Source: Pseudomonadota bacterium (GTDB lineage: Bacteria > Pseudomonadota > Gammaproteobacteria > Xanthomonadales > Ahniellaceae). From it: a DNA stretch of 54,965 nucleotides. The position numbers and the translations under genes were made by a program. Positions 4,193 to 54,965 of this stretch are shown one piece after another; within the stretch, counting starts at the first letter, position 1, and every line of letters starts with the position of its first letter. The stretch covers positions 1-54,965 of the forward strand of contig JAKJFE010000003.1 in the NCBI GenBank assembly GCA_022705045.1. The letters run 5' to 3'. Below the pieces are notes generated by a model that made no database searches, was not told the DNA's origin, and saw only the letters and a program-made list of their open reading frames with translations.

Positions 4193-6574
4193 ATGATCCG
4201 CCATCTCGCCACATTGTTGTTCTTCTTGGTGCTCGCCACCGCCGCCCGCGCCGGCGACGACCCACTGGCGCCCCTCGGCAGCAACCTCGGCGGCATCACC
4301 GACTTCAGCGACGAGTTTCCGTTCGTCAATCTGATGAAATCGTCACGCGACTGGATTCCGGGCCGTGCCGGCTGCTTCGACTGTCGCGACAATCCAAGCT
4401 GCGGCGGCACCTGCCCGGTGACGCTCGACCTCGACACCAACGGCGATGTGCAAAGCCTGCTGCCCAACCAGGAGGCACGCACCGTGATCTACGCGGGGGC
4501 CGGGCTCGCCAGCGGTCGTCTGCCCGCTGGCACCTACACGATGCTGTTCGACGGCAGCGGCAGCGTGAACTTTTTCGGCGCCAGCAACGTCCAGAACCCG
4601 CAGCCCGGGCGCATCACGTTCGACATCGGCGCCAGCAACACCAACATCGGCTTCAACCTCACCGCGACCACGCCCGGCAACCCGCTGCGCAACATCCGCA
4701 TCCTGCCGCCGGGCGGCGTCTGTTCGAACGACGAACGCCGCGCCTGCGACGCCGGCAATCCGTGCAGTGGCGGCGGTACCTGCAACCTCTACACCACACC
4801 CGGCGTCGCCGAGGCGCAGATCTTCCAGCCGCGCTTCCTCGCCAATGCCGCGCCCTATCGCCTGCTGCGTTTCATGGACTGGATGGAGACGAATTCCTCG
4901 GCGGTCGTGAACTTCGCCGACTACCCGACGCCGACCAGCGCGTTCTGGCATCGCGTGCCGCCGCAGATCCTGGCGGAACTTGGCAACCGCCTCGGCTCGG
5001 ACTTGTGGATCAACATCCCGCACCGCGCCAGCAATGGCTTCGTCGACCAGTTCGCGACCGTGCTGCGCGACAACTTCCGCGCCGACCGCAAGCTCTTCGT
5101 CGAATACAGCAATGAAAACTGGAACGGCATCTTCAGCCAGAACCTGGAAATCCCGCGCGCCGCCTGCCCGGGCTTCGCCGACCTCGCCGCGAATTGCCAG
5201 CTCGATGGCGTGCCCGGAAACGGCATCGCCTGCGAGATCGACCCGAACACCTTCAGCGTGCCGGCGCCGGCGAACGGCGCGTGTTTCCAGGCACTGGTGC
5301 GACGCTGGGGCGACCGCTCGGTCGAGATCTTCGATCGCTTCGATACCGTGTTCGGCGCCAATGCCCGCGACCGCGTCGTGCGCGTGGTCGCAGCCCAGGC
5401 GGCAAATCCGGACCTCGGCCGACAGGTGCTGGTGCGCACCGTCACCGGCGGCGGCACCACGGTCGCCGCGAAGACCGACGCCTATGCCGTCGCGCCCTAT
5501 TTCGGCACCGAATACTGCACGCCGAGCGCGGGCATCAACCCGGACACGAACCCGACGGTCTACGCCAACCTCGATAATTTCTTTGCCGACTTGAACAGCC
5601 GCGCCCTGCCCACCGCCATCGGCTTCATGACCGGCAACAAGACCATGCTCGCGAACAACTTCCCAGGCTCGGGCATCCGCCTGATCGCCTACGAGGGCGG
5701 ACAACACTTCGCCGGCATCGGTGGCTTCACCTTCAACAGCACCTGCAACACGATCTTCGACGCCGCCAATGCGGACGCACGCATGGGCACGCTGTATGGC
5801 GATTACCTTGCGGCCTGGAAGCAGAATGGCGACGAGTTCGCGCACTTCTACAACGTCGGTCGCTGGGGTCCGTTCGGGCGCTGGGGCGCGCTCGAATTCC
5901 AGGACCAGTCGCCCGCGTCGTCGCCGAAGTACAGCGCCATCACCACGTTCTCGGACACCAATCCGTACTGGTGGCCCGGCTGCGCACAAGGCCCGGTCGC
6001 GCCGGTCGATGCACTGTTCAAGAACAGCTTCGAAGACAACGGCACACCGCCGCCGACCTGCACGCCCGCCCAGTTGCTGAGCGACCGCGGTCTCGAAGCG
6101 AGTGATCCGAGTACCGGTGCGAATGCCTTCTGGGCCTCGACCTCGACGATCTTTGGCAGTGCCATCTGCACCAGCAACATCTGTCCCGACGACGCCGGCA
6201 CTGCCTTGCCGCGCAACGGCAGCGCCTGGGCCTGGTTCGGCGGCATCGCCAATGCCGAGACCTCGACCTTGTCGCAATCGGTCGTCATTCCGTCCGGCAG
6301 CCCGCGCCATCTCAATTTCTTCCTGCGTCGCGGCTTCACGAGTGCACCGCTGGACGCAACGCTACGCATCAAAGTCGACGGCACGACGGTGCGCACATTC
6401 GACGAACCGGCCAGCGCCGAGTCGGCCTACGTCGCCCGCACCGTGGACGTGAGCAGCTTCGCGAACGGCGCCAGCCATGTCATCCAGTTCGAATACGTGA
6501 ATCCGGGCGGCAGCGGCAAGTCGAACTTCGTCGTCGACGACCTCACGATCGACTGCAGCGCATCGGGCACATGA
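4193..6574 (+). CDS. Secreted glycoside-hydrolase-like protein with internal LFxxxFE motif and C-terminal beta-sandwich
   Basis: This is a 793-residue exported protein. A signal peptide (residues 1 to about 20, ending A-R-A) precedes a region with cysteine-rich inserts ('CFDCRD', 'CGGTC'). A long central domain follows with 'KLFVEYSNENWN', the 'Y-S-N-E-x-W-N' signature seen in secreted cellulose-binding or TIM-barrel hydrolase-like proteins. The Glu in that motif could be catalytic (inference). At about residue 605 the sequence 'ALFKNSFEDNG' resembles the tail that ends other exported proteins in this window, but here an additional domain of about 170 residues follows. That domain contains 'FVVDDLTIDC' near its end, like MAM or carbohydrate-binding sandwiches. 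A GGAG lies before the ATG. The substrate is unknown. Confidence 0.7.
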   Translation: MIRHLATLLFFLVLATAARAGDDPLAPLGSNLGGITDFSDEFPFVNLMKSSRDWIPGRAGCFDCRDNPSCGGTCPVTLDLDTNGDVQSLLPNQEARTVIYAGAGLASGRLPAGTYTMLFDGSGSVNFFGASNVQNPQPGRITFDIGASNTNIGFNLTATTPGNPLRNIRILPPGGVCSNDERRACDAGNPCSGGGTCNLYTTPGVAEAQIFQPRFLANAAPYRLLRFMDWMETNSSAVVNFADYPTPTSAFWHRVPPQILAELGNRLGSDLWINIPHRASNGFVDQFATVLRDNFRADRKLFVEYSNENWNGIFSQNLEIPRAACPGFADLAANCQLDGVPGNGIACEIDPNTFSVPAPANGACFQALVRRWGDRSVEIFDRFDTVFGANARDRVVRVVAAQAANPDLGRQVLVRTVTGGGTTVAAKTDAYAVAPYFGTEYCTPSAGINPDTNPTVYANLDNFFADLNSRALPTAIGFMTGNKTMLANNFPGSGIRLIAYEGGQHFAGIGGFTFNSTCNTIFDAANADARMGTLYGDYLAAWKQNGDEFAHFYNVGRWGPFGRWGALEFQDQSPASSPKYSAITTFSDTNPYWWPGCAQGPVAPVDALFKNSFEDNGTPPPTCTPAQLLSDRGLEASDPSTGANAFWASTSTIFGSAICTSNICPDDAGTALPRNGSAWAWFGGIANAETSTLSQSVVIPSGSPRHLNFFLRRGFTSAPLDATLRIKVDGTTVRTFDEPASAESAYVARTVDVSSFANGASHVIQFEYVNPGGSGKSNFVVDDLTIDCSASGT

Positions 6575-11013: not shown

Positions 11014-13214
11014 TCGAAGCTGTAAGTCGCGGCCAGCGTGTACTGGCGCGGCGTGCCGTAGAAGCCGGTGAGAATGCCGAGCACCGGGATGTTGTAGCCG
11101 GTGGTGCGATATTCCTTGTCACCGAGGTTCGAGCCCTGCAGCGAGAAGGCCCACGGACCGTCACCACGCCACACCAGGCCGGCACTGAACAGGCTGTAGC
11201 CCGACTGTGCGATGGCTTCGCTGAGGTCGGTGGTCGGATAGACCTTGGACTGGTAGCTCGCGGTCGCACGCGCCATCAGTTCGCCGCCGAACGCCGGCCA
11301 GGTGTAGGCCGCGGTCAACGCGCCGGAGCGCTTCGGTGCATTGGTCATGTACTGCGAATCGGCGATGTTGACGTTGCGCGAGACGAACTCGTCGTAGGTC
11401 GCATCGAGATAGGCCGCATTGCCGCTGATGCTCAGGCGCTCGGTCGCCAGCCACTGCATTTCCAGTTCCAGGCCCTGCACCGTGGCCTTGCCGGCATTGG
11501 TGAAGTCGCCGAAGAACGAGTCGTCGGTACCGTCGCCATTCGAGTCGTAGGCGCTGAACACCGACAGCTGGATGTCCTCGTACTTGTTGTGGAACAGCGA
11601 CGCATTGAGGAACAGGGTGTCGTCGTTGAACGACTGCTTGGTGCCGATTTCGAAGCTGGTCACCGATTCGTCGTCGAACGGCAGCGCCGAAGCGGGCACC
11701 GCCGACACGTTGGCGCGGATGTTGAAGCCACCGCTCTTGAAGCCACGACTGATCAGGCCGTAGACGAGGGTGTCGTCGTCGATCTGCCAGTCCAGCGACA
11801 CCTTCGGCGACAGGTTCTGGAAGTCGACCGAGTCGGTGAAATCCGAGGGCGTGGCGATCGGCGTGGTGAACTGGGCGTTCGCGAAGAACTGGTTCAACAC
11901 ATCGGCGGTCTTGGACTCGTCGGTGTAACGCAGGCCGGCAGTGATCGACAAGGTGTCGTTGATCGGGAAGGTGCCTTCGCCGTAGAGCGCATACGACTCG
12001 GTGTCGACGGTGCCGTTGGTGGTACCGAACTGCAGGTTGAAGAAGTTGTTGAACACGGTGCCGCCGGCTTCGCCGTCAAACCAGTAGACGCCGAACACGC
12101 CGCTCCAGCTGTCGCTGGCGTAGTTGAACTGGAATTCCTGGCTCAGCTGTTCGTCGGCATAGAGCGCGCGCACGTCGGCGATCTTGTTCGGCAGCAGGTC
12201 GAAGTCGATCGTGGTGTCGGTGTCGGATTCGCGATAGGCGGTGACCGACTTGAACCACCAGTTGTCGGCGAGGTTCCAGTTGATCGTCGCCGAGGCGCCG
12301 TCCATGCTGGTGTCGTTGACGTTGGGCATGCCGCTCAACGTGTCGTAGCGGTCGTCCAGCGGCGCGGTGCGGGTCGGGTCGGCCGGGTTGAAGGGATTCA
12401 GGCGCTTGGCACCGCGCACGCCGCCCTGGTCGTCGAGCCAGTCGGCCGCGAGGATGACGCTGACCGTGTCCGACGGATAGAAGCCGAGCGTGCCGCGACC
12501 GACCAGGATTTCCTTGTCCGACACCGGTTCGCCGGTGCGGCGGTTTTCGCCGAAGCCGTCGCGGCTCAGCGAGGCCACGGACACGCGGCCGACGATGCTG
12601 TCGGAACCCAGCGGCAGGTTCAGGCTGCTCTTCACGTCGAGCTGGGAATAGTTGCCGACCGCCACCGTCGTCGTCGAACCGAAGTCCGGCGTCAGCGGCT
12701 TGGTCACGTATTTGATGGCGCCGCCAATGGTGTTCTTGCCGTACAGCGTGCCCTGCGGGCCGCGCAGCACTTCGACGCGCTCGATGTCGATCACGTCCAG
12801 CAGCGCACCTTGCGGACGCGCGATGTAGACGTCGTCGAGATACACGCCGACGCCCGGATCGACACCCCACAGCGGATCCGACTGGCCGACGCCGCGGATG
12901 TAGGCGGTCACCGTCGAATTCGAACCGCGCGCGGCATACACCGTCAGATTCGGCACCTGCGCGTCGAGATCGCCCATGTCCTGCACGTCGAGATTTTCGA
13001 GCGCGGTTTCGGTGAAGGCGGTCACGGCGACCGGCACTTCCTGCAGCGTCTCTTCGCGACGGCGCGCGGTGACGGTGATCTGCTCCATCGTCGTGGCCTT
13101 GTCGGACTTGGCCTCTTCGCCTTCTTTCTTCGCGTCCTGGGCCATGACCGGCAGGGCCGCGAACAGCGAGAACGCGATCGCCAGCGCCAGCGGTGAACGG
13201 GTGTGCTTCGACAT
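11010..13214 (-). CDS. TonB-dependent outer-membrane receptor
   Basis: A 734-residue outer-membrane receptor. The signal peptide (M-S-K-H-T-R-S start, cut near 'VMAQ') precedes a TonB-box-like 'EQITVTARRREE'. A plug domain contains 'VEVLRGPQGTLYGKNTIGGA', and a long beta-barrel ends in an aromatic-terminated strand ('YTLAATYSFD'). The frame is open 45 codons further upstream, but the ATG at 13214 is followed by a proper signal peptide. The ligand is not evident. The stop overlaps the TTG start of the downstream esterase lipoprotein, which suggests joint expression and a link to uptake of a hydrolysed ester or polymer (inference). Confidence 0.92.
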   Translation of the reverse strand: MSKHTRSPLALAIAFSLFAALPVMAQDAKKEGEEAKSDKATTMEQITVTARRREETLQEVPVAVTAFTETALENLDVQDMGDLDAQVPNLTVYAARGSNSTVTAYIRGVGQSDPLWGVDPGVGVYLDDVYIARPQGALLDVIDIERVEVLRGPQGTLYGKNTIGGAIKYVTKPLTPDFGSTTTVAVGNYSQLDVKSSLNLPLGSDSIVGRVSVASLSRDGFGENRRTGEPVSDKEILVGRGTLGFYPSDTVSVILAADWLDDQGGVRGAKRLNPFNPADPTRTAPLDDRYDTLSGMPNVNDTSMDGASATINWNLADNWWFKSVTAYRESDTDTTIDFDLLPNKIADVRALYADEQLSQEFQFNYASDSWSGVFGVYWFDGEAGGTVFNNFFNLQFGTTNGTVDTESYALYGEGTFPINDTLSITAGLRYTDESKTADVLNQFFANAQFTTPIATPSDFTDSVDFQNLSPKVSLDWQIDDDTLVYGLISRGFKSGGFNIRANVSAVPASALPFDDESVTSFEIGTKQSFNDDTLFLNASLFHNKYEDIQLSVFSAYDSNGDGTDDSFFGDFTNAGKATVQGLELEMQWLATERLSISGNAAYLDATYDEFVSRNVNIADSQYMTNAPKRSGALTAAYTWPAFGGELMARATASYQSKVYPTTDLSEAIAQSGYSLFSAGLVWRGDGPWAFSLQGSNLGDKEYRTTGYNIPVLGILTGFYGTPRQYTLAATYSFD

Positions 13215-13345
13215 GTGGTTTCTCCCCGGCACGACATGCGCCGATCTTGGCGGCGACTCTAGAAACGGAAACTTCACAACGCACCTGTACCTTGGTCCAG
13301 TCAAAGCCATGAAAGCTGTCCCGGGGCCTCTCCGCGGACGCAAAC

Positions 13346-13370
13346 CCATGGCGCTACACTGCGCCCATGG
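13346..13370 (+). promoter_or_regulatory. Imperfect palindrome over a -10-like box and the antitoxin start codon
   Basis: CCATGGCGC and GCGCCCATGG flank TACACT (13355-13360). The arms pair with a one-base bulge. The TACACT ends six bases before the ATG at 13367, which leaves no room for a ribosome binding site, so a leaderless transcript with an autoregulatory operator is plausible. No clear -35 is visible. Confidence 0.4.
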
Positions 13371-13591
13371 ACATCAGCATCATCGAACGCGAAGCCTTGA
13401 ACCTGCCGGCATCCGACCGCGCCAGGCTGGCCCAGGAATTGCTCGACAGTCTTGTCTCGTTGTCGCTGCCGGAAATCGAAAACCTGTGGATCAATGAGGC
13501 CTCTCGCCGCCTGGTCGAATTCGACCGCGGTGCGGTCGCAGCCACGCCTGCCGACATCGTGATGCAGAAGGCGCGGAACCTGCTGAAGTGA
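13367..13591 (+). CDS. Addiction-module antitoxin (TIGR02574-like)
   Basis: The 74-residue acidic protein has the form typical of short antitoxins paired with ParE/RelE toxins: 'ISIIEREALNLPASDRARLAQELLDSL' features in its first half and 'IENLWINEASRRLVEFDRG' in the second. It would bind and neutralise the adjacent toxin and repress the operon. Its TGA overlaps the GTG of the toxin gene by four bases (GTGA), so the pair is translationally coupled. No ribosome binding site precedes the ATG. Confidence 0.85.
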   Translation: MDISIIEREALNLPASDRARLAQELLDSLVSLSLPEIENLWINEASRRLVEFDRGAVAATPADIVMQKARNLLK

Positions 13592-13881
13592 TTTGCCGCT
13601 TCCTGCCCGAGGCCGAAGCGGAGCATCTAGAACAAGTCCACTGGTACGAGCAGCATCTCAGCGGACTCGGCGCTCGCTACCTCGCCGCAGTCCAGCAGGC
13701 GCTAGACCGCATCTGCGAAGCGCCCCGTCGATTTCCGGTTGTAGGTACCGGCGAACTGCGGCGACTGTCGCTCGAACGATTTCCATTCACGGTCTACTAC
13801 GCGGAACGCGCTGGTGACATCCTGATCGTCGCCATCGCCGCGCACAGGCGCAAACCCGGTTATTGGTCGACCCGCGTCTAG
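13588..13881 (+). CDS. RelE/ParE-family toxin
   Basis: This 97-residue basic protein has the ParE/RelE fold signature: an N-terminal 'EAEAEHLEQVHWYEQ' helix pair, 'LGARYLAAVQQALDRI', then 'RRFPVVGTGELRRLSLERFPFTVYY' and the C-terminal 'IVAIAAHRRKPGYW'. The family either poisons gyrase (ParE) or cleaves mRNA (RelE); the sequence alone does not decide, though ParE-like is more likely. It starts with GTG overlapping the antitoxin stop. Its last bases overlap the convergent M50-like gene by four bases. Confidence 0.87.
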   Translation: MICRFLPEAEAEHLEQVHWYEQHLSGLGARYLAAVQQALDRICEAPRRFPVVGTGELRRLSLERFPFTVYYAERAGDILIVAIAAHRRKPGYWSTRV

Positions 13882-14603
13882 GACTTCGGTATCGACAGCA
13901 CCGCCAGCCTCAGCGCACCGAACAGGATGACGGTCGAGACCAGCATCCAGATCACCGCCCACCAGGTGGCCGGCAGCCAGGTGAGGTCGGCCATCGTTTG
14001 CGCGTCGCTGCTCACGCTGGCATCGCGGGCCAGGGCGAACACGGTGAACAGGCTATCGTAGCCGTCGAGGATCAGTTGCAGGGCCAACACGTCGACGAGC
14101 AGATCGCGCGCGGCAAGCGACAGTTTCGCGGCGGACACCACCAGCGCGGCGGTGATCACCAGCCCGGCCGCCACGCCGAACAGGTTGCGGACGAACAGCA
14201 GGCACAACACGCCGAAGACCAGACCGAGACCGAACAGCAGCGTACGCGACGACAGCAGGCGCGCATGCAGCACCAGCAAGACGCCGCCGAAGACCGCGCT
14301 GCCGATATAGCCGGCACTGGCGACGACGACGCGCCAGCCACCGGCTGAATGGGCAACGCCGGACAGATCCGGCGATATCGCGAAGCGCAGAAAATCGCCG
14401 CCGGTCGCGATCGCGGCCAGGCCATGGCTCAACTCGTGCACGAAGGTGCCGAACACGCGGAACGGATAGACCAGCCAGCCCAGCCACGGCACCTGCCACA
14501 GTCCGATCAGCAACAGGGCGAGCGCGGCCAGCGCGAACCAGCGCCGCCAGCCGCGGTCGATGCCGATGCCACTGGGGCTTGATCCAGTTCCGGGTGCATC
14601 CAT
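13878..14603 (-). CDS. M50-type membrane metallopeptidase-like protein
   Basis: This 241-residue integral membrane protein has about six hydrophobic helices. 'FVHELSHGLAAI' contains an HExxH zinc motif (His56, Glu57, His60) in the first part, next to 'GGDFLRF', and a long C-terminal helical region follows. This matches M50 (site-2-protease-like) family proteins of unknown substrate. The ATG at 14603 was chosen because the upstream frame is antisense to the next gene. That divergent gene begins only 27 bases away, so the two promoters must overlap or one mRNA must be nearly leaderless. Confidence 0.78.
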   Translation of the reverse strand: MDAPGTGSSPSGIGIDRGWRRWFALAALALLLIGLWQVPWLGWLVYPFRVFGTFVHELSHGLAAIATGGDFLRFAISPDLSGVAHSAGGWRVVVASAGYIGSAVFGGVLLVLHARLLSSRTLLFGLGLVFGVLCLLFVRNLFGVAAGLVITAALVVSAAKLSLAARDLLVDVLALQLILDGYDSLFTVFALARDASVSSDAQTMADLTWLPATWWAVIWMLVSTVILFGALRLAVLSIPKS

Positions 14604-33496: not shown

Positions 33497-36400
33497 TTAT
33501 TCGAAGCCGTTGCGGAAGAGCCCGTCGCTGACGCGCACATCGCCATTGCCGGCACGACCCTGCAATCGACGCCACGGACCCGCGCGCCCCGCGGGCGATG
33601 TGATGCCCGACTGGGTCACGGTGTACGGCGCGAACACGACGCGTGCGCGCCAACGCTGGAGGCTGTCGAAAGCGAGGCCACTGGTTTCGGCCGCCAGGCT
33701 GACGCCACCCGCCGTCGCGCCAAGATCGACCCAGGCCGGTGATCGCACCGTCTCGCACTCGGGCGCGCCAAACGGTTTGCCGGTCGGACAGGACTCGATC
33801 TCGAGCTTGCCGCGTTCGCGTCCGCGTGGGCTGTGGCCTTCCATGCCGACGACGTAGCCATCGCCATCGCCCGAGCGTCCCCAGGCTTCCACGGGACCGA
33901 ACGGCGCCGCATTGTAGGTCTGGCCAGAGACCGGACGACCGGCGCCCTCGTTCGTGAACACGAACACGCCGCCTTCGTTGCTTTGGCCGTTTCCGTACGC
34001 GAATGCACCGGCCGCGACGTCCATGTCGCCGTCGCCATCGAAGTCGCCCGGCGCGATCGAACCGCCCATCTGCGCGAACGCCGTGGCTTGGCTCAGGTTG
34101 CGATCGGCCGTCGCATCGAATGCACCCGAACCACCCAGATACAACTGGATCAAACCGGCCGCAGAAGCGCCGCCGTTTGCCCAAACCGGCGTTCCGACCC
34201 AGAGATCGGCGTAGCCATCGCCATTCACGTCACCGGCCGGCGCAACGGCCGCTCCCGTGTTCCCCAATCCAAAAGTCGACGCCGTTCGCAGGGTCGCCAC
34301 CGCATTGGTCGTCGGGTTGGCAGCGCCGAGGAAGACATAGGCCGACCCTTGGTCCTGCTGGGTGTCGTCTTCATTGAAGGCGCCGGCCACGAAGTCGTCA
34401 AAGCCATCGCCATTCACATCGCCCGCGGTCGATACGGCCGAGCCCATGCGGCCATCGTTCTGGGTGCCGATGTAGCTGCGATCGGCCACGGTGTCGATGG
34501 TCACGCCGCCGAACCAGACGTAGACCGCACCCGCGTTGGCGTGGCCCGCTGCGTCGAGCCCAATCGCGCCACCGGCCAGATCGGCATAACCGTCACCATT
34601 CAAATCGCCGATACCGGCCACGCTGTAGCCCATGTAGGCCGAGCCCTGATTGACATCGAAGACCGCGTCGGTGTCGGCGTTCATGGGCGACCCGCCAAGG
34701 AACAGGAAGATCGCGCCCTCGTCCGGGCTGCCGTTGTCGTAGAAGCGCGAACCGACCAGCACATCCCCGAGGCCGTCGCCATTCACGTCGCCCGCGAATG
34801 CGACGCTGTAGCCGAGCTCGGCGTTGAGCTGGTTCGACTCCATGACGACGTCCGCTGTCGTGTCGAACACCCCTGCCGTTCCGTAGTAGACATGCACCAT
34901 GCCCTCCGCAGCCAAACCGTTGGAGCGTGTGGGCGAGCCCACGATCACGTCGGCGATGCCGTCGCCATTCACGTCGCCGGTGGCGACACTGCCGCCGAAA
35001 CGTCCGTTGGCGACACCGGTTTCCAGGACTGTGTTCGGCGCGGCACTCACGCCGGTTGGGCTGCCGAGATGGATGCTCACGCGCCCCGCCGTCGACGCGG
35101 TGGCACTCCAGGCCGGCTGCCCGATCAACAGGTCGGCATAGCCGTCGCCGTTCACGTCGCCCGATGCGACCGACTTGCCGACTTCGGCATTGGCCAGATT
35201 GAACTCGAGGGTGAGGTCGCTGGCGGCATCCATCAGCCGGGCTTCCGTGCGATAGCCGAACACGGCACCATCCGCGGTGAAGCTGCCGGTCATGCCGGGC
35301 AGGCCCGCGAACAGCTCGCTGCGCCCGTCACGGTTGTGGTCGATCAGGGCGAGGCCGCTGCCCATGCGCCCATTGATGCGATTGCCTTCCAATGTGGCGA
35401 ACGGTGTTGCCGCCAATCCGGTCCGCGACCCGAGATAGACATGGACGCGGCCCTCATTGGCTTCGCCGTTCGCGAACAGCGGCGCTGCGACGACGATGTC
35501 GCCGAAGCCGTCGCCATCGACATCGCCCATGCCAGCGCCGCGGGCACCCAACTGGATGTTGTTGGCATCGCCCTGGTAAGCGGCATCGGCGACGGTATCG
35601 ATGGACCCGAGACCGCCGAAATACACGAAGGCCGCTCCTTCGTCGGTTTGGCCGTCGTCGAAGAGCGGCGCGCCCACGAGCACGTCGCTGTAGCCGTCGC
35701 CGTTCACGTCGCCTGCCGCGGCCACATACGAACCGAGCTTGGCCCCGGCCTGGTCGGACTGGTACTGCGCGTCGGTCCCGGTGTTGAACGAGGCGCCGCC
35801 GAGATACAAGAAGGCCGATCCCTCGTCGGTCTGGCCCGCGTCGTATTCGGCGGCACCGACCAGCACGTCGGCAAAGCCATCGCCATTCACGTCGCCGACC
35901 CCGGCGACACTGGTGCCCATGCGCGCCGACGCCTGCGATGAGGTCAAGGTGACATCGGCCGTGCTGTCGAAACTGGCGCTGCCGAAGTAGATCAGGGCCA
36001 CGCCGGAGTTGGTCGCGCCGCCATCATGCCCGTTTCCGCCGATGAGGATGTCGGCGTAACCGTCGCCATTCACGTCTCCCGCGCCGGCCACGCTGGTGCC
36101 GAGATACGAGGCGTTCTGGTCGGTTTGCATCACCGCGGACGAGGTGGTCGATACGACCGGGCCGCCAAGATAGAGATAGCCGAGACCTTCGTCGGTCTGG
36201 CCGTTGTCGGCAAATTCGGCGCCGACGACGAAATCACCGAAGCCGTCGCCGTTCACGTCGCCGACGCCAGCCACCGACGATCCGTAGCGCGCACCGGCCT
36301 GGGCGGCATTGACGGTCCAGTCCGGCACGGCGTCGAAACCATCGGCGGAACCGAAGAACAGGTAGGCGGCACCGGCATCGACGGCGTTCGTGTCATTGGC

Positions 36401-36616
36401 GGGCGAGCCGACGAGCAAGTCGTCGTAACCGTCGCCATTGATGTCGCCGGCATTGGCAATGCCGTGGCCGAACTCGGCGTTGGCCGATCCGCCACTGAAT
36501 GTGCGATCCGGTGTGCCGTTGACGATGGATTTCGAAACCGCCGCCGGTGCCATGGCAGCAACCTGTGATGCGGCGAAGCAGGCGCCGAGAGCGAGAAGCA
36601 AGGACTTGCGCAACAT
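33497..36616 (-). CDS. Secreted FG-GAP (integrin-like beta-propeller) repeat protein
   Basis: This 1039-residue exported protein has a signal peptide (M-L-R-K-S-L-L-L, cut near 'VAA') and then about 14 FG-GAP units, each with a calcium-type loop 'G-D-V-N-G-D-G-x-x-D'. Fourteen is enough for two seven-bladed propellers. A roughly 150-residue non-repeat domain and the tail 'DGLFRNGFE' end the protein. FG-GAP proteins are usually adhesins or extracellular binding proteins. The ATG at 36616 begins the signal peptide; the upstream open frame is discarded. The internal DNA repeats are coding, not CRISPR. Confidence 0.88.
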   Translation of the reverse strand: MLRKSLLLALGACFAASQVAAMAPAAVSKSIVNGTPDRTFSGGSANAEFGHGIANAGDINGDGYDDLLVGSPANDTNAVDAGAAYLFFGSADGFDAVPDWTVNAAQAGARYGSSVAGVGDVNGDGFGDFVVGAEFADNGQTDEGLGYLYLGGPVVSTTSSAVMQTDQNASYLGTSVAGAGDVNGDGYADILIGGNGHDGGATNSGVALIYFGSASFDSTADVTLTSSQASARMGTSVAGVGDVNGDGFADVLVGAAEYDAGQTDEGSAFLYLGGASFNTGTDAQYQSDQAGAKLGSYVAAAGDVNGDGYSDVLVGAPLFDDGQTDEGAAFVYFGGLGSIDTVADAAYQGDANNIQLGARGAGMGDVDGDGFGDIVVAAPLFANGEANEGRVHVYLGSRTGLAATPFATLEGNRINGRMGSGLALIDHNRDGRSELFAGLPGMTGSFTADGAVFGYRTEARLMDAASDLTLEFNLANAEVGKSVASGDVNGDGYADLLIGQPAWSATASTAGRVSIHLGSPTGVSAAPNTVLETGVANGRFGGSVATGDVNGDGIADVIVGSPTRSNGLAAEGMVHVYYGTAGVFDTTADVVMESNQLNAELGYSVAFAGDVNGDGLGDVLVGSRFYDNGSPDEGAIFLFLGGSPMNADTDAVFDVNQGSAYMGYSVAGIGDLNGDGYADLAGGAIGLDAAGHANAGAVYVWFGGVTIDTVADRSYIGTQNDGRMGSAVSTAGDVNGDGFDDFVAGAFNEDDTQQDQGSAYVFLGAANPTTNAVATLRTASTFGLGNTGAAVAPAGDVNGDGYADLWVGTPVWANGGASAAGLIQLYLGGSGAFDATADRNLSQATAFAQMGGSIAPGDFDGDGDMDVAAGAFAYGNGQSNEGGVFVFTNEGAGRPVSGQTYNAAPFGPVEAWGRSGDGDGYVVGMEGHSPRGRERGKLEIESCPTGKPFGAPECETVRSPAWVDLGATAGGVSLAAETSGLAFDSLQRWRARVVFAPYTVTQSGITSPAGRAGPWRRLQGRAGNGDVRVSDGLFRNGFE

Positions 36617-36867
36617 GAAGACCCCATGGAGATGTGGCGTGGCCCTTGATCGCGGAGCGACCCCGTCCGTCGCGCGTGCCGGTTCCGGCACCCACGCACG
36701 TGAGCTGCGTCAAAGGTGACGCCAGTCTCTGAAACAGTCCGTCACAGGCGCATCCCATGGACGGGTGGGCGCGGCGACCGGCGGCCACCGCACCCGACGG
36801 ATGGCGACGTCGGTTGCCCATTCGCGAAGTTCCCGCTTAGGCTCGGGCTTCCCCTGCGGTTCGATCC

Positions 36868-54276: not shown

Positions 54277-54965
54277 TTAAGGCGCGGTTTCGAAGCCGTC
54301 GCTGAACAAGCCGAACGGGAGGATCGTGATGGTGAAGGACTGCGTGGCCGACAAGGGCTCGGCGTCGCTGGCGGTAACCGTGATCGGATAGCTGCCGGGC
54401 ACCGATGCACCGATCGGTGGCGTGCCGGAAATCACGCCGGTGCCGGTATCGATCGTCAACCAGGCTGGCAAGCCGGACGCGCTGTAGCTCAAGCTCGCGT
54501 TGTCGACGTCGTTGAACGCCTGCGCAGTGGCGATGGACAACGCGACCGCTTCGGGAGACACCACGTTGGACAGGCTTCCGACGGCGGTCGGTGCATCGTT
54601 GATGCAACTGACCGTCACGCTGACCGTCGCGGAACTGCCGCCGGTGATCGTGTAGGTGAAGCTGTCGGAACCGCAGTAGTTGGCCCCCGGCGTGTAGGTC
54701 ACGTTCGCGCCGCCAGGGCCGACGGCGGTGGTGCCGTTCGTGGCGGAACCCACGGCCGTGACGACAAATGCGGTGCCGTCCGGATCGGGCGTATCGTTGC
54801 CGAGCACGTTGACGGTGCTGGCACTGCTGTCTTCGTTGACGGTCGCACTATCGGCCACGGCGGTTGCCGGTCCGTCATCGACGCAGGTCACGGTGACGCT
54901 GACCGTCGCGGTACTACCACCGGTGATCGTGTAGCTGAAGCTGTCGGAACCGCAGTAGTTCGCGG
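54277..54965 (-). CDS. 3' end of a secreted tandem Ig/cadherin-like repeat protein (truncated by window)
   Basis: The frame is open to the window edge, so this is the C-terminal part of a longer protein. It holds a repeated unit of about 93 residues with 'ANYCGSDSF', 'YTITGG' and 'ATVSVTV', followed by 'NEDSSASTVNVLGNDTPDPDG' of the cadherin-like/VCBS kind. An Ig-like putative domain comes next ('AFNDVDNASLSYSASGLPAW', 'GVISGTPP'). It ends 'GLFSDGFETAP', the tail shared with other exported proteins here. It is likely a surface or secreted adhesin-like protein. Confidence 0.8.
   Translation of the reverse strand, partial: ANYCGSDSFSYTITGGSTATVSVTVTCVDDGPATAVADSATVNEDSSASTVNVLGNDTPDPDGTAFVVTAVGSATNGTTAVGPGGANVTYTPGANYCGSDSFTYTITGGSSATVSVTVSCINDAPTAVGSLSNVVSPEAVALSIATAQAFNDVDNASLSYSASGLPAWLTIDTGTGVISGTPPIGASVPGSYPITVTASDAEPLSATQSFTITILPFGLFSDGFETAP

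Follow-up and report, generated by a model that had tools for sequence, protein, structure and literature searches.

A heptapeptide with the consensus [LIVM]-F-x-[DN]-G-F-E, followed by 0-5 residues, terminates exported proteins of unrelated folds in one order of Gammaproteobacteria. The tag is real, it is maintained at the level of the peptide, and it tracks one particular type II secretion system (T2SS), type A, in families that have either kept or lost this machine. We consider it probable that the sequence, which has no transmembrane segment, serves as a sorting tag at the C-terminus of Sec-exported proteins that cross the outer membrane via the type A T2SS, a reading for which there are as yet no bench data.

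The C-terminal tag and its carriers

The window, a stretch of 54,965 nucleotides, is contig C20 of a draft genome (3.35 Mb in 242 contigs, 86% complete). Two of its minus-strand genes carry the tag. An open reading frame of 1064 aa (33497-36691) encodes an FG-GAP beta-propeller protein (Pfam FG-GAP, 1.7e-91), whose likely start is a good ATG at 36616; the product of 33497..36616 begins with the signal peptide MLRKSLLLALGACFAASQVAA, as called by a heuristic detector, and ends with GLFRNGFE and the stop codon (33497..33523). The other gene (54277..54963), whose 5' part is missing where the contig ends, encodes an Ig-like protein (Pfam Big_9 and He_PIG) terminated by GLFSDGFETAP and the stop codon (54277..54312), a tail retained in a Lysobacterales homologue (L176). 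When the final 41-47 residues of both proteins were scanned against NCBIfam, no family was matched. AlphaFold models of the Ig-like protein and of a tagged beta-helix protein (mean pLDDT 42 and 43, respectively) were of too low confidence for use.

The original prediction, that the FG-GAP and Ig-like proteins share a tail, holds far beyond this pair, since such ends were found 46 times in the genome. The pattern F..GFE has 74 matches (7 with the reversed pattern), and inspection of the flanking stretches placed 46 of them 0-5 residues from a stop codon: 33 are exactly C-terminal and 13 are followed by 1-5 extra residues. Residue frequencies predict approximately 0.13 such ends per genome. In 41/41 tags the first F follows L, V, I or M, and 40/41 have D or N at position +2. 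A signal-peptide-like N-terminus was called in 36/37 complete tagged genes vs 135/371 untagged genes of the same stretches (Fisher p = 6e-14); the detector was home-made, crude and liberal, so that the evidence lies in the contrast rather than in the absolute rate. Enrichment at the C-termini of exported proteins, which had been set as the test of the prediction, is thus clear, and the proposal that the tail is a sorting, secretion or attachment signal gains support from the excess of observed ends (46 vs about 0.1), the unrelated domains and the presence of signal peptides in nearly all carriers.

Codons within the tag match those of the genome (GAA 25 : GAG 20, with all four Gly codons present), which indicates selection at the peptide level; what is conserved is the amino acid sequence rather than the DNA. 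Judged by its residues alone, the motif looks like a short beta-hairpin about a [DN]-G turn. A transmembrane helix, Cys, GlyGly and a basic tail are all absent, and no Pfam or NCBIfam model describes the tag; nor did we find a publication on it in the open literature, a search that left most subscription journals uncovered.

No domain is common to the 45 tagged proteins compared with Pfam and NCBIfam, which matched more than 30 different families. They include FG-GAP, beta-helix, DUF11, Ig and cadherin-like domains and, among enzymes, S8, M14, M28 and M36 peptidases and a glucose/sorbosone dehydrogenase (Pfam). Eight tagged proteins are of the choice-of-anchor Q type (NCBIfam), and the tagged M36 proteases, which were too rare to serve as an orthologue set, match the NCBIfam models of myxosortase-dependent, rhombosortase-dependent and T9SS-dependent M36 proteins. 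The tag is therefore borne by families that elsewhere end in sorting signals.

Clustering of gene neighbourhoods revealed neither a conserved enzyme nor secretion genes adjoining the tagged genes. A dedicated processing enzyme encoded next to them was accordingly rejected: the only genes to recur, beside tagged beta-helix genes, encode Ser/Thr protein kinases and ECF sigma factors, pointing to regulation rather than processing. The kinase genes were seen in 9 genomes and the sigma factor genes in 6, next to tagged beta-helix genes of the choice-of-anchor Q type (e.g. loci L086, L089, L129, L180 and L221). Of the two kinds of co-occurring partner that had been suggested, a secretion system, the second T2SS, was found, while no processing enzyme could be identified.

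Distribution of the tag and of the type A T2SS

With the stop codon included in the pattern, the ten genomes of the host's own family contain 6-56 copies each and the tag is common in several sister families, while a phylum-wide sample of 397 genomes yielded no more than two, chance-level, matches per genome outside the order (Lysobacterales/Xanthomonadales). Within the order there are up to approximately 130 pattern matches per genome, the named carriers being Dokdonella, Tahibacter, Chiayiivirga, Aquimonas, Rudaea and Marinicella, alongside many Lysobacterales MAGs. The similar endings that had been suggested for Rhodanobacteraceae do occur in Dokdonella, Tahibacter, Rudaea and Chiayiivirga; they extend to Marinicella and other Lysobacterales. 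Orthologues of the glucose/sorbosone dehydrogenase in different families carry either the tag or FxDRFE, FxDDFE or FxTGFE at the same place; orthologues of the tagged dehydrogenase in 38/61 relatives have variant ends at this position (IFQDRFE in family f9, FADDFE and FATGFE in f12, LFGYGFD in f3). Variants of the F-x-D-R-F-E type dominate one family, and F.D[RS]FE has 83 pattern matches in a single f9 genome. The variant counts, and the tag counts of the 298 genomes considered below, are pattern matches whose C-terminal position was not confirmed individually.

Since the cargo of both the MYXO-CTERM and the GlyGly-CTERM systems depends on a T2SS, the latter was chosen as the candidate partner; MYXO-CTERM and GlyGly-CTERM proteins have been reported to rely on this machine, the former in Myxococcus (PMC11980579). 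Partner profiling was limited to the T2SS, the first secretion system examined, and to rhombosortase. Searches for GspD (TIGR02517) revealed that tag-bearing families mostly encode two T2SSs, while tag-free families have one, none, or a different second system. The second system of the tag bearers, which we call type A, consists of gspC-gspD-gspE, plus gspF in some families; in the genome studied the locus has the order gspC-gspD-gspE and lies on another contig (G000:C104). Its GspC protein (318 aa) comprises a T2SSC region followed by a C-terminal PDZ domain, and the PDZ domain of type A GspC matches the OutC/PulC/EpsC PDZ structures 6hcg, 5hj1, 2i4s and 2i6v.

GspD proteins of type A and of the other type are about 25% identical. 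In the GspD tree, the type A proteins group into a single clade that mirrors the families, which suggests mainly vertical inheritance, and the Xps-like proteins (type B) form a second clade; the second system of Xanthomonas (Xcs-like) and similar GspD proteins are separate, long-branched and tag-free. The type A clade includes every tag-rich genome in the tree except G007, of which only the type B protein was sampled. PF03934 (GspK) proved uninformative as a T2SS marker, as it matches generic HhH domains. An apparent enrichment of tagged genes around type A loci (6 in 675 kb vs 0 in 698 kb at type B loci) was set aside, since tag-poor genomes are part of the type B set.

We scored 298 genomes of the order, defining as tag-rich those with at least 8 matches of [LIVMF]F.[DN][GRS]FE. 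Type A GspD is present in 81/86 tag-rich vs 7/212 tag-poor genomes (Fisher 7e-58, uncorrected for phylogeny), i.e. 81 genomes have both, 5 are tag-rich only, 7 have type A only and 205 have neither. One of the five, G500, encodes a type A GspE, which raises the first figure to 82/86. The association recurs within the two largest families, f2 and f12, mostly tag-free (202 genomes), where type A was detected in 15/15 tag-rich genomes, spanning at least six genera, vs 3/187 tag-poor ones (5e-20, likewise uncorrected).

The exceptions are of both kinds. Type A accompanies a poor complement of tags in G450, G464, G471, G535, G571, G598 and G676, as well as in G018, which lies outside the 298. The last of these (L407, family f10) encodes a PDZ-containing GspC as part of its type A T2SS but almost no known tag variants, and may use another ending. 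Tag-rich genomes without a detected type A system are G505 and G007, both fragmented or incomplete assemblies, G524, a weak case, and G449 (family f7), where 17 tag matches and no type A GspD or GspE were found, the clearest exception to the co-occurrence. As both the tag and type A appear to be inherited largely vertically, the independent events are fewer than the genomes, and co-occurrence is not mechanism.

Relation to known sorting systems

The tag possesses what is expected of C-terminal sorting tags in general, namely many unrelated exported carriers and a co-distributed partner (with the caveat of phylogeny), and its carriers have the cleavable Sec/Tat signal peptide expected of T2SS substrates, although the latter rests on the heuristic calls alone. 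It most resembles GlyGly-CTERM in being a multi-copy C-terminal signal of unrelated exported proteins, M36 proteases among them, and in its presumed joint action with a T2SS, and MYXO-CTERM in occurring in dozens of copies per genome within one clade and in its homologous M36 cargo. However, GlyGly-CTERM requires rhombosortase and combines a Gly-Gly motif with a transmembrane helix and a basic tail, none of which applies to the tag. MYXO-CTERM, which is cut by an intramembrane protease, contains an invariant Cys and a transmembrane helix and terminates in an Arg-rich stretch, whereas the tag comprises seven soluble residues without Cys or helix. Signals of the GlyGly-, PEP- and MYXO-CTERM kind are thus not represented here: there is no helix with basic residues, and the proteins end 0-5 residues after the E.

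The T9SS also employs a C-terminal signal to address Sec-exported proteins, again including homologous M36 cargo, to an outer-membrane machine, but its signal, found in Bacteroidota, is a folded domain at the C-terminus and not, as in these Gammaproteobacteria, a heptapeptide. A further parallel is the recognition of VesB by EpsC and of PelI by OutC, in which Sec-exported, folded substrates are recognized with the help of the GspC PDZ domain, a domain also present in type A GspC; in these cases, however, the information resides in an Ig or Fn3 fold, and there is no shared linear tag (PMC12369372).

Rhombosortase (TIGR03902) itself scored above the cut-off in 14/298 genomes, namely 1/86 tag-rich vs 13/212 tag-poor ones (p = 0.07), and below it in the genome studied. 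It was rejected as a partner of the tag, its distribution being the wrong one; it nearly excludes the tag, as if two solutions replaced each other. In G571, a tag-free genome, the type A genes gspC-gspD-gspE are immediately preceded by a rhombosortase-like gene (L468, about 12003-14005, minus strand). A rhombosortase-GspC fusion in this genome was ruled out, as these are two neighbouring genes in different frames.

Proposed function and competing explanations

According to the model that we favour, whose order of events is inferred, a tagged protein would be exported by Sec across the inner membrane and would fold with the tag left exposed; the type A T2SS would then capture it, and after passage via GspD it would be released or displayed at the surface. 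The role of the tag is best explained as that of an export or of a surface-retention signal, both of which fit. Export is suggested by the loss of the tag when the type A machine is lost, but the same profile would be expected of an anchor that comes into play only once type A has exported the protein. The two readings overlap, and confidence in a rival does not exclude our main statement.

A more specific, and more tentative, version is that the tag is a linear, transferable signal for outer-membrane export, read by the PDZ domain of GspC, which would make it the first short consensus address for a T2SS; we regard this as possible, at rather less than even chances. In Vibrio cholerae, the EpsC PDZ domain is required for VesB export (PMC12369372), and the 2P/PDZ region of GspC has been proposed as the substrate docking site (PMC11981180). 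Binding of the tag by this domain is a hypothesis, inferred without binding data. For a classical PDZ ligand, which would carry the motif at the extreme C-terminus with a free carboxylate, the evidence is divided: 33 of the 46 ends are exactly terminal, but a strict ligand of this kind is at odds with tails that run for up to 6-8 residues past the E and with one internal copy, LFKNSFE (6014..6034, plus strand), inside a 793-aa exported protein of the window (4193-6574). This copy, which means that the motif is not always terminal, also counts against our main reading, as do the regulators, rather than secretion genes, beside the tagged genes and the fact that T2SSs with a PDZ-type GspC outside the order work without the tag.

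How a T2SS selects its substrates is unresolved; according to recent papers, a conserved or universal signal has yet to be identified (PMC11981180, PMC12802150, PMC12369372). With a heptapeptide whose distribution follows one T2SS throughout an order, this question becomes directly testable in harmless species that can be cultured, among them Dokdonella and Chiayiivirga, and the type A system may have in this tag the address label that has long been sought. If it is a true export signal, the substrate list, and with it the secretome, could be predicted from a genome by text search; if it is only a surface tag, it would still be a helix-free sorting signal, present on dozens of proteins per genome, for which there is no Pfam or NCBIfam model.

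The strongest competitor, to which we assign a little short of an even chance, holds that type A exports its cargo by fold-borne information and that the tag merely attaches the product to the surface, via an outer-membrane receptor or by covalent processing as in GlyGly- and MYXO-CTERM. Many tagged families are named choice-of-anchor or sortase-dependent elsewhere (NCBI), a T2SS and a C-terminal tag cooperate in both of those systems (PMC11980579), and the near exclusion of rhombosortase, together with its gene upstream of type A gspC in G571, would fit such a role. The same holds for Wenzhouxiangella AB-CW3, whose proteases were reported not to be released: no protease activity was found in the medium, and the authors inferred surface-anchored proteases, possibly exported by a T2SS (PMC7691419). 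Yet the tag lacks the helix, Cys, GlyGly and basic tail of such anchors, no conserved enzyme is encoded beside its carriers, and an anchor need not disappear along with a T2SS. It is also conceivable, though rather unlikely, that the correlation reflects shared ancestry, the tag and type A having been lost together in reduced or specialised lineages while the tag serves some other, unknown receptor. The mostly vertical descent of type A GspD and the small size of several tag-poor type A genomes (1.8-2.8 Mb) are compatible with this; however, tag-poor genomes without type A are often complete, 4-5 Mb in size and still equipped with an Xps-type T2SS, and tag-rich genera recur within the otherwise tag-free families f2, f7 and f12.

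The two remaining explanations deny the tag any function as a peptide. That it is a DNA element, for instance an uptake sequence or terminator read in frame by chance, can practically be dismissed: multiple copies at gene ends with TTCGAA-like palindromes inside would suit such an element, but the frame is always the same, synonymous codons vary as in the rest of the genome, a variation that refutes it, and AT-rich Marinicella encodes the same peptide with different DNA. Very improbable, too, is a functionless vestige, the first strand of a jelly-roll domain beginning IF-x-DGFESGD-x-x-W, left behind after loss of the domain. A longer motif, IFSDGFESGDFSAW, does open jelly-roll-like domains in viral contigs, while its shorter form ends several secreted proteins, and in the window LFKNSFE stands just ahead of such a region: in the 4193-6574 protein, which has no Pfam match, it is followed by approximately 180 residues resembling a jelly-roll of the MAM or choice-of-anchor type. 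Nevertheless, 46 near-identical stubs in which F, G, F and E are constant on unrelated proteins while synonymous change is free, and which are lost together with type A, require ongoing selection. Such a strand may be the origin of the tag, which we offer as a lead and not as a result. Among contigs of viral collections, proteins were also observed, some with signal-peptide-like starts, that end in the longer form of the motif, e.g. IFADGFESGDTSAWTRTEH (loci L293, L297, L299, L301, L309, L313 and L314).
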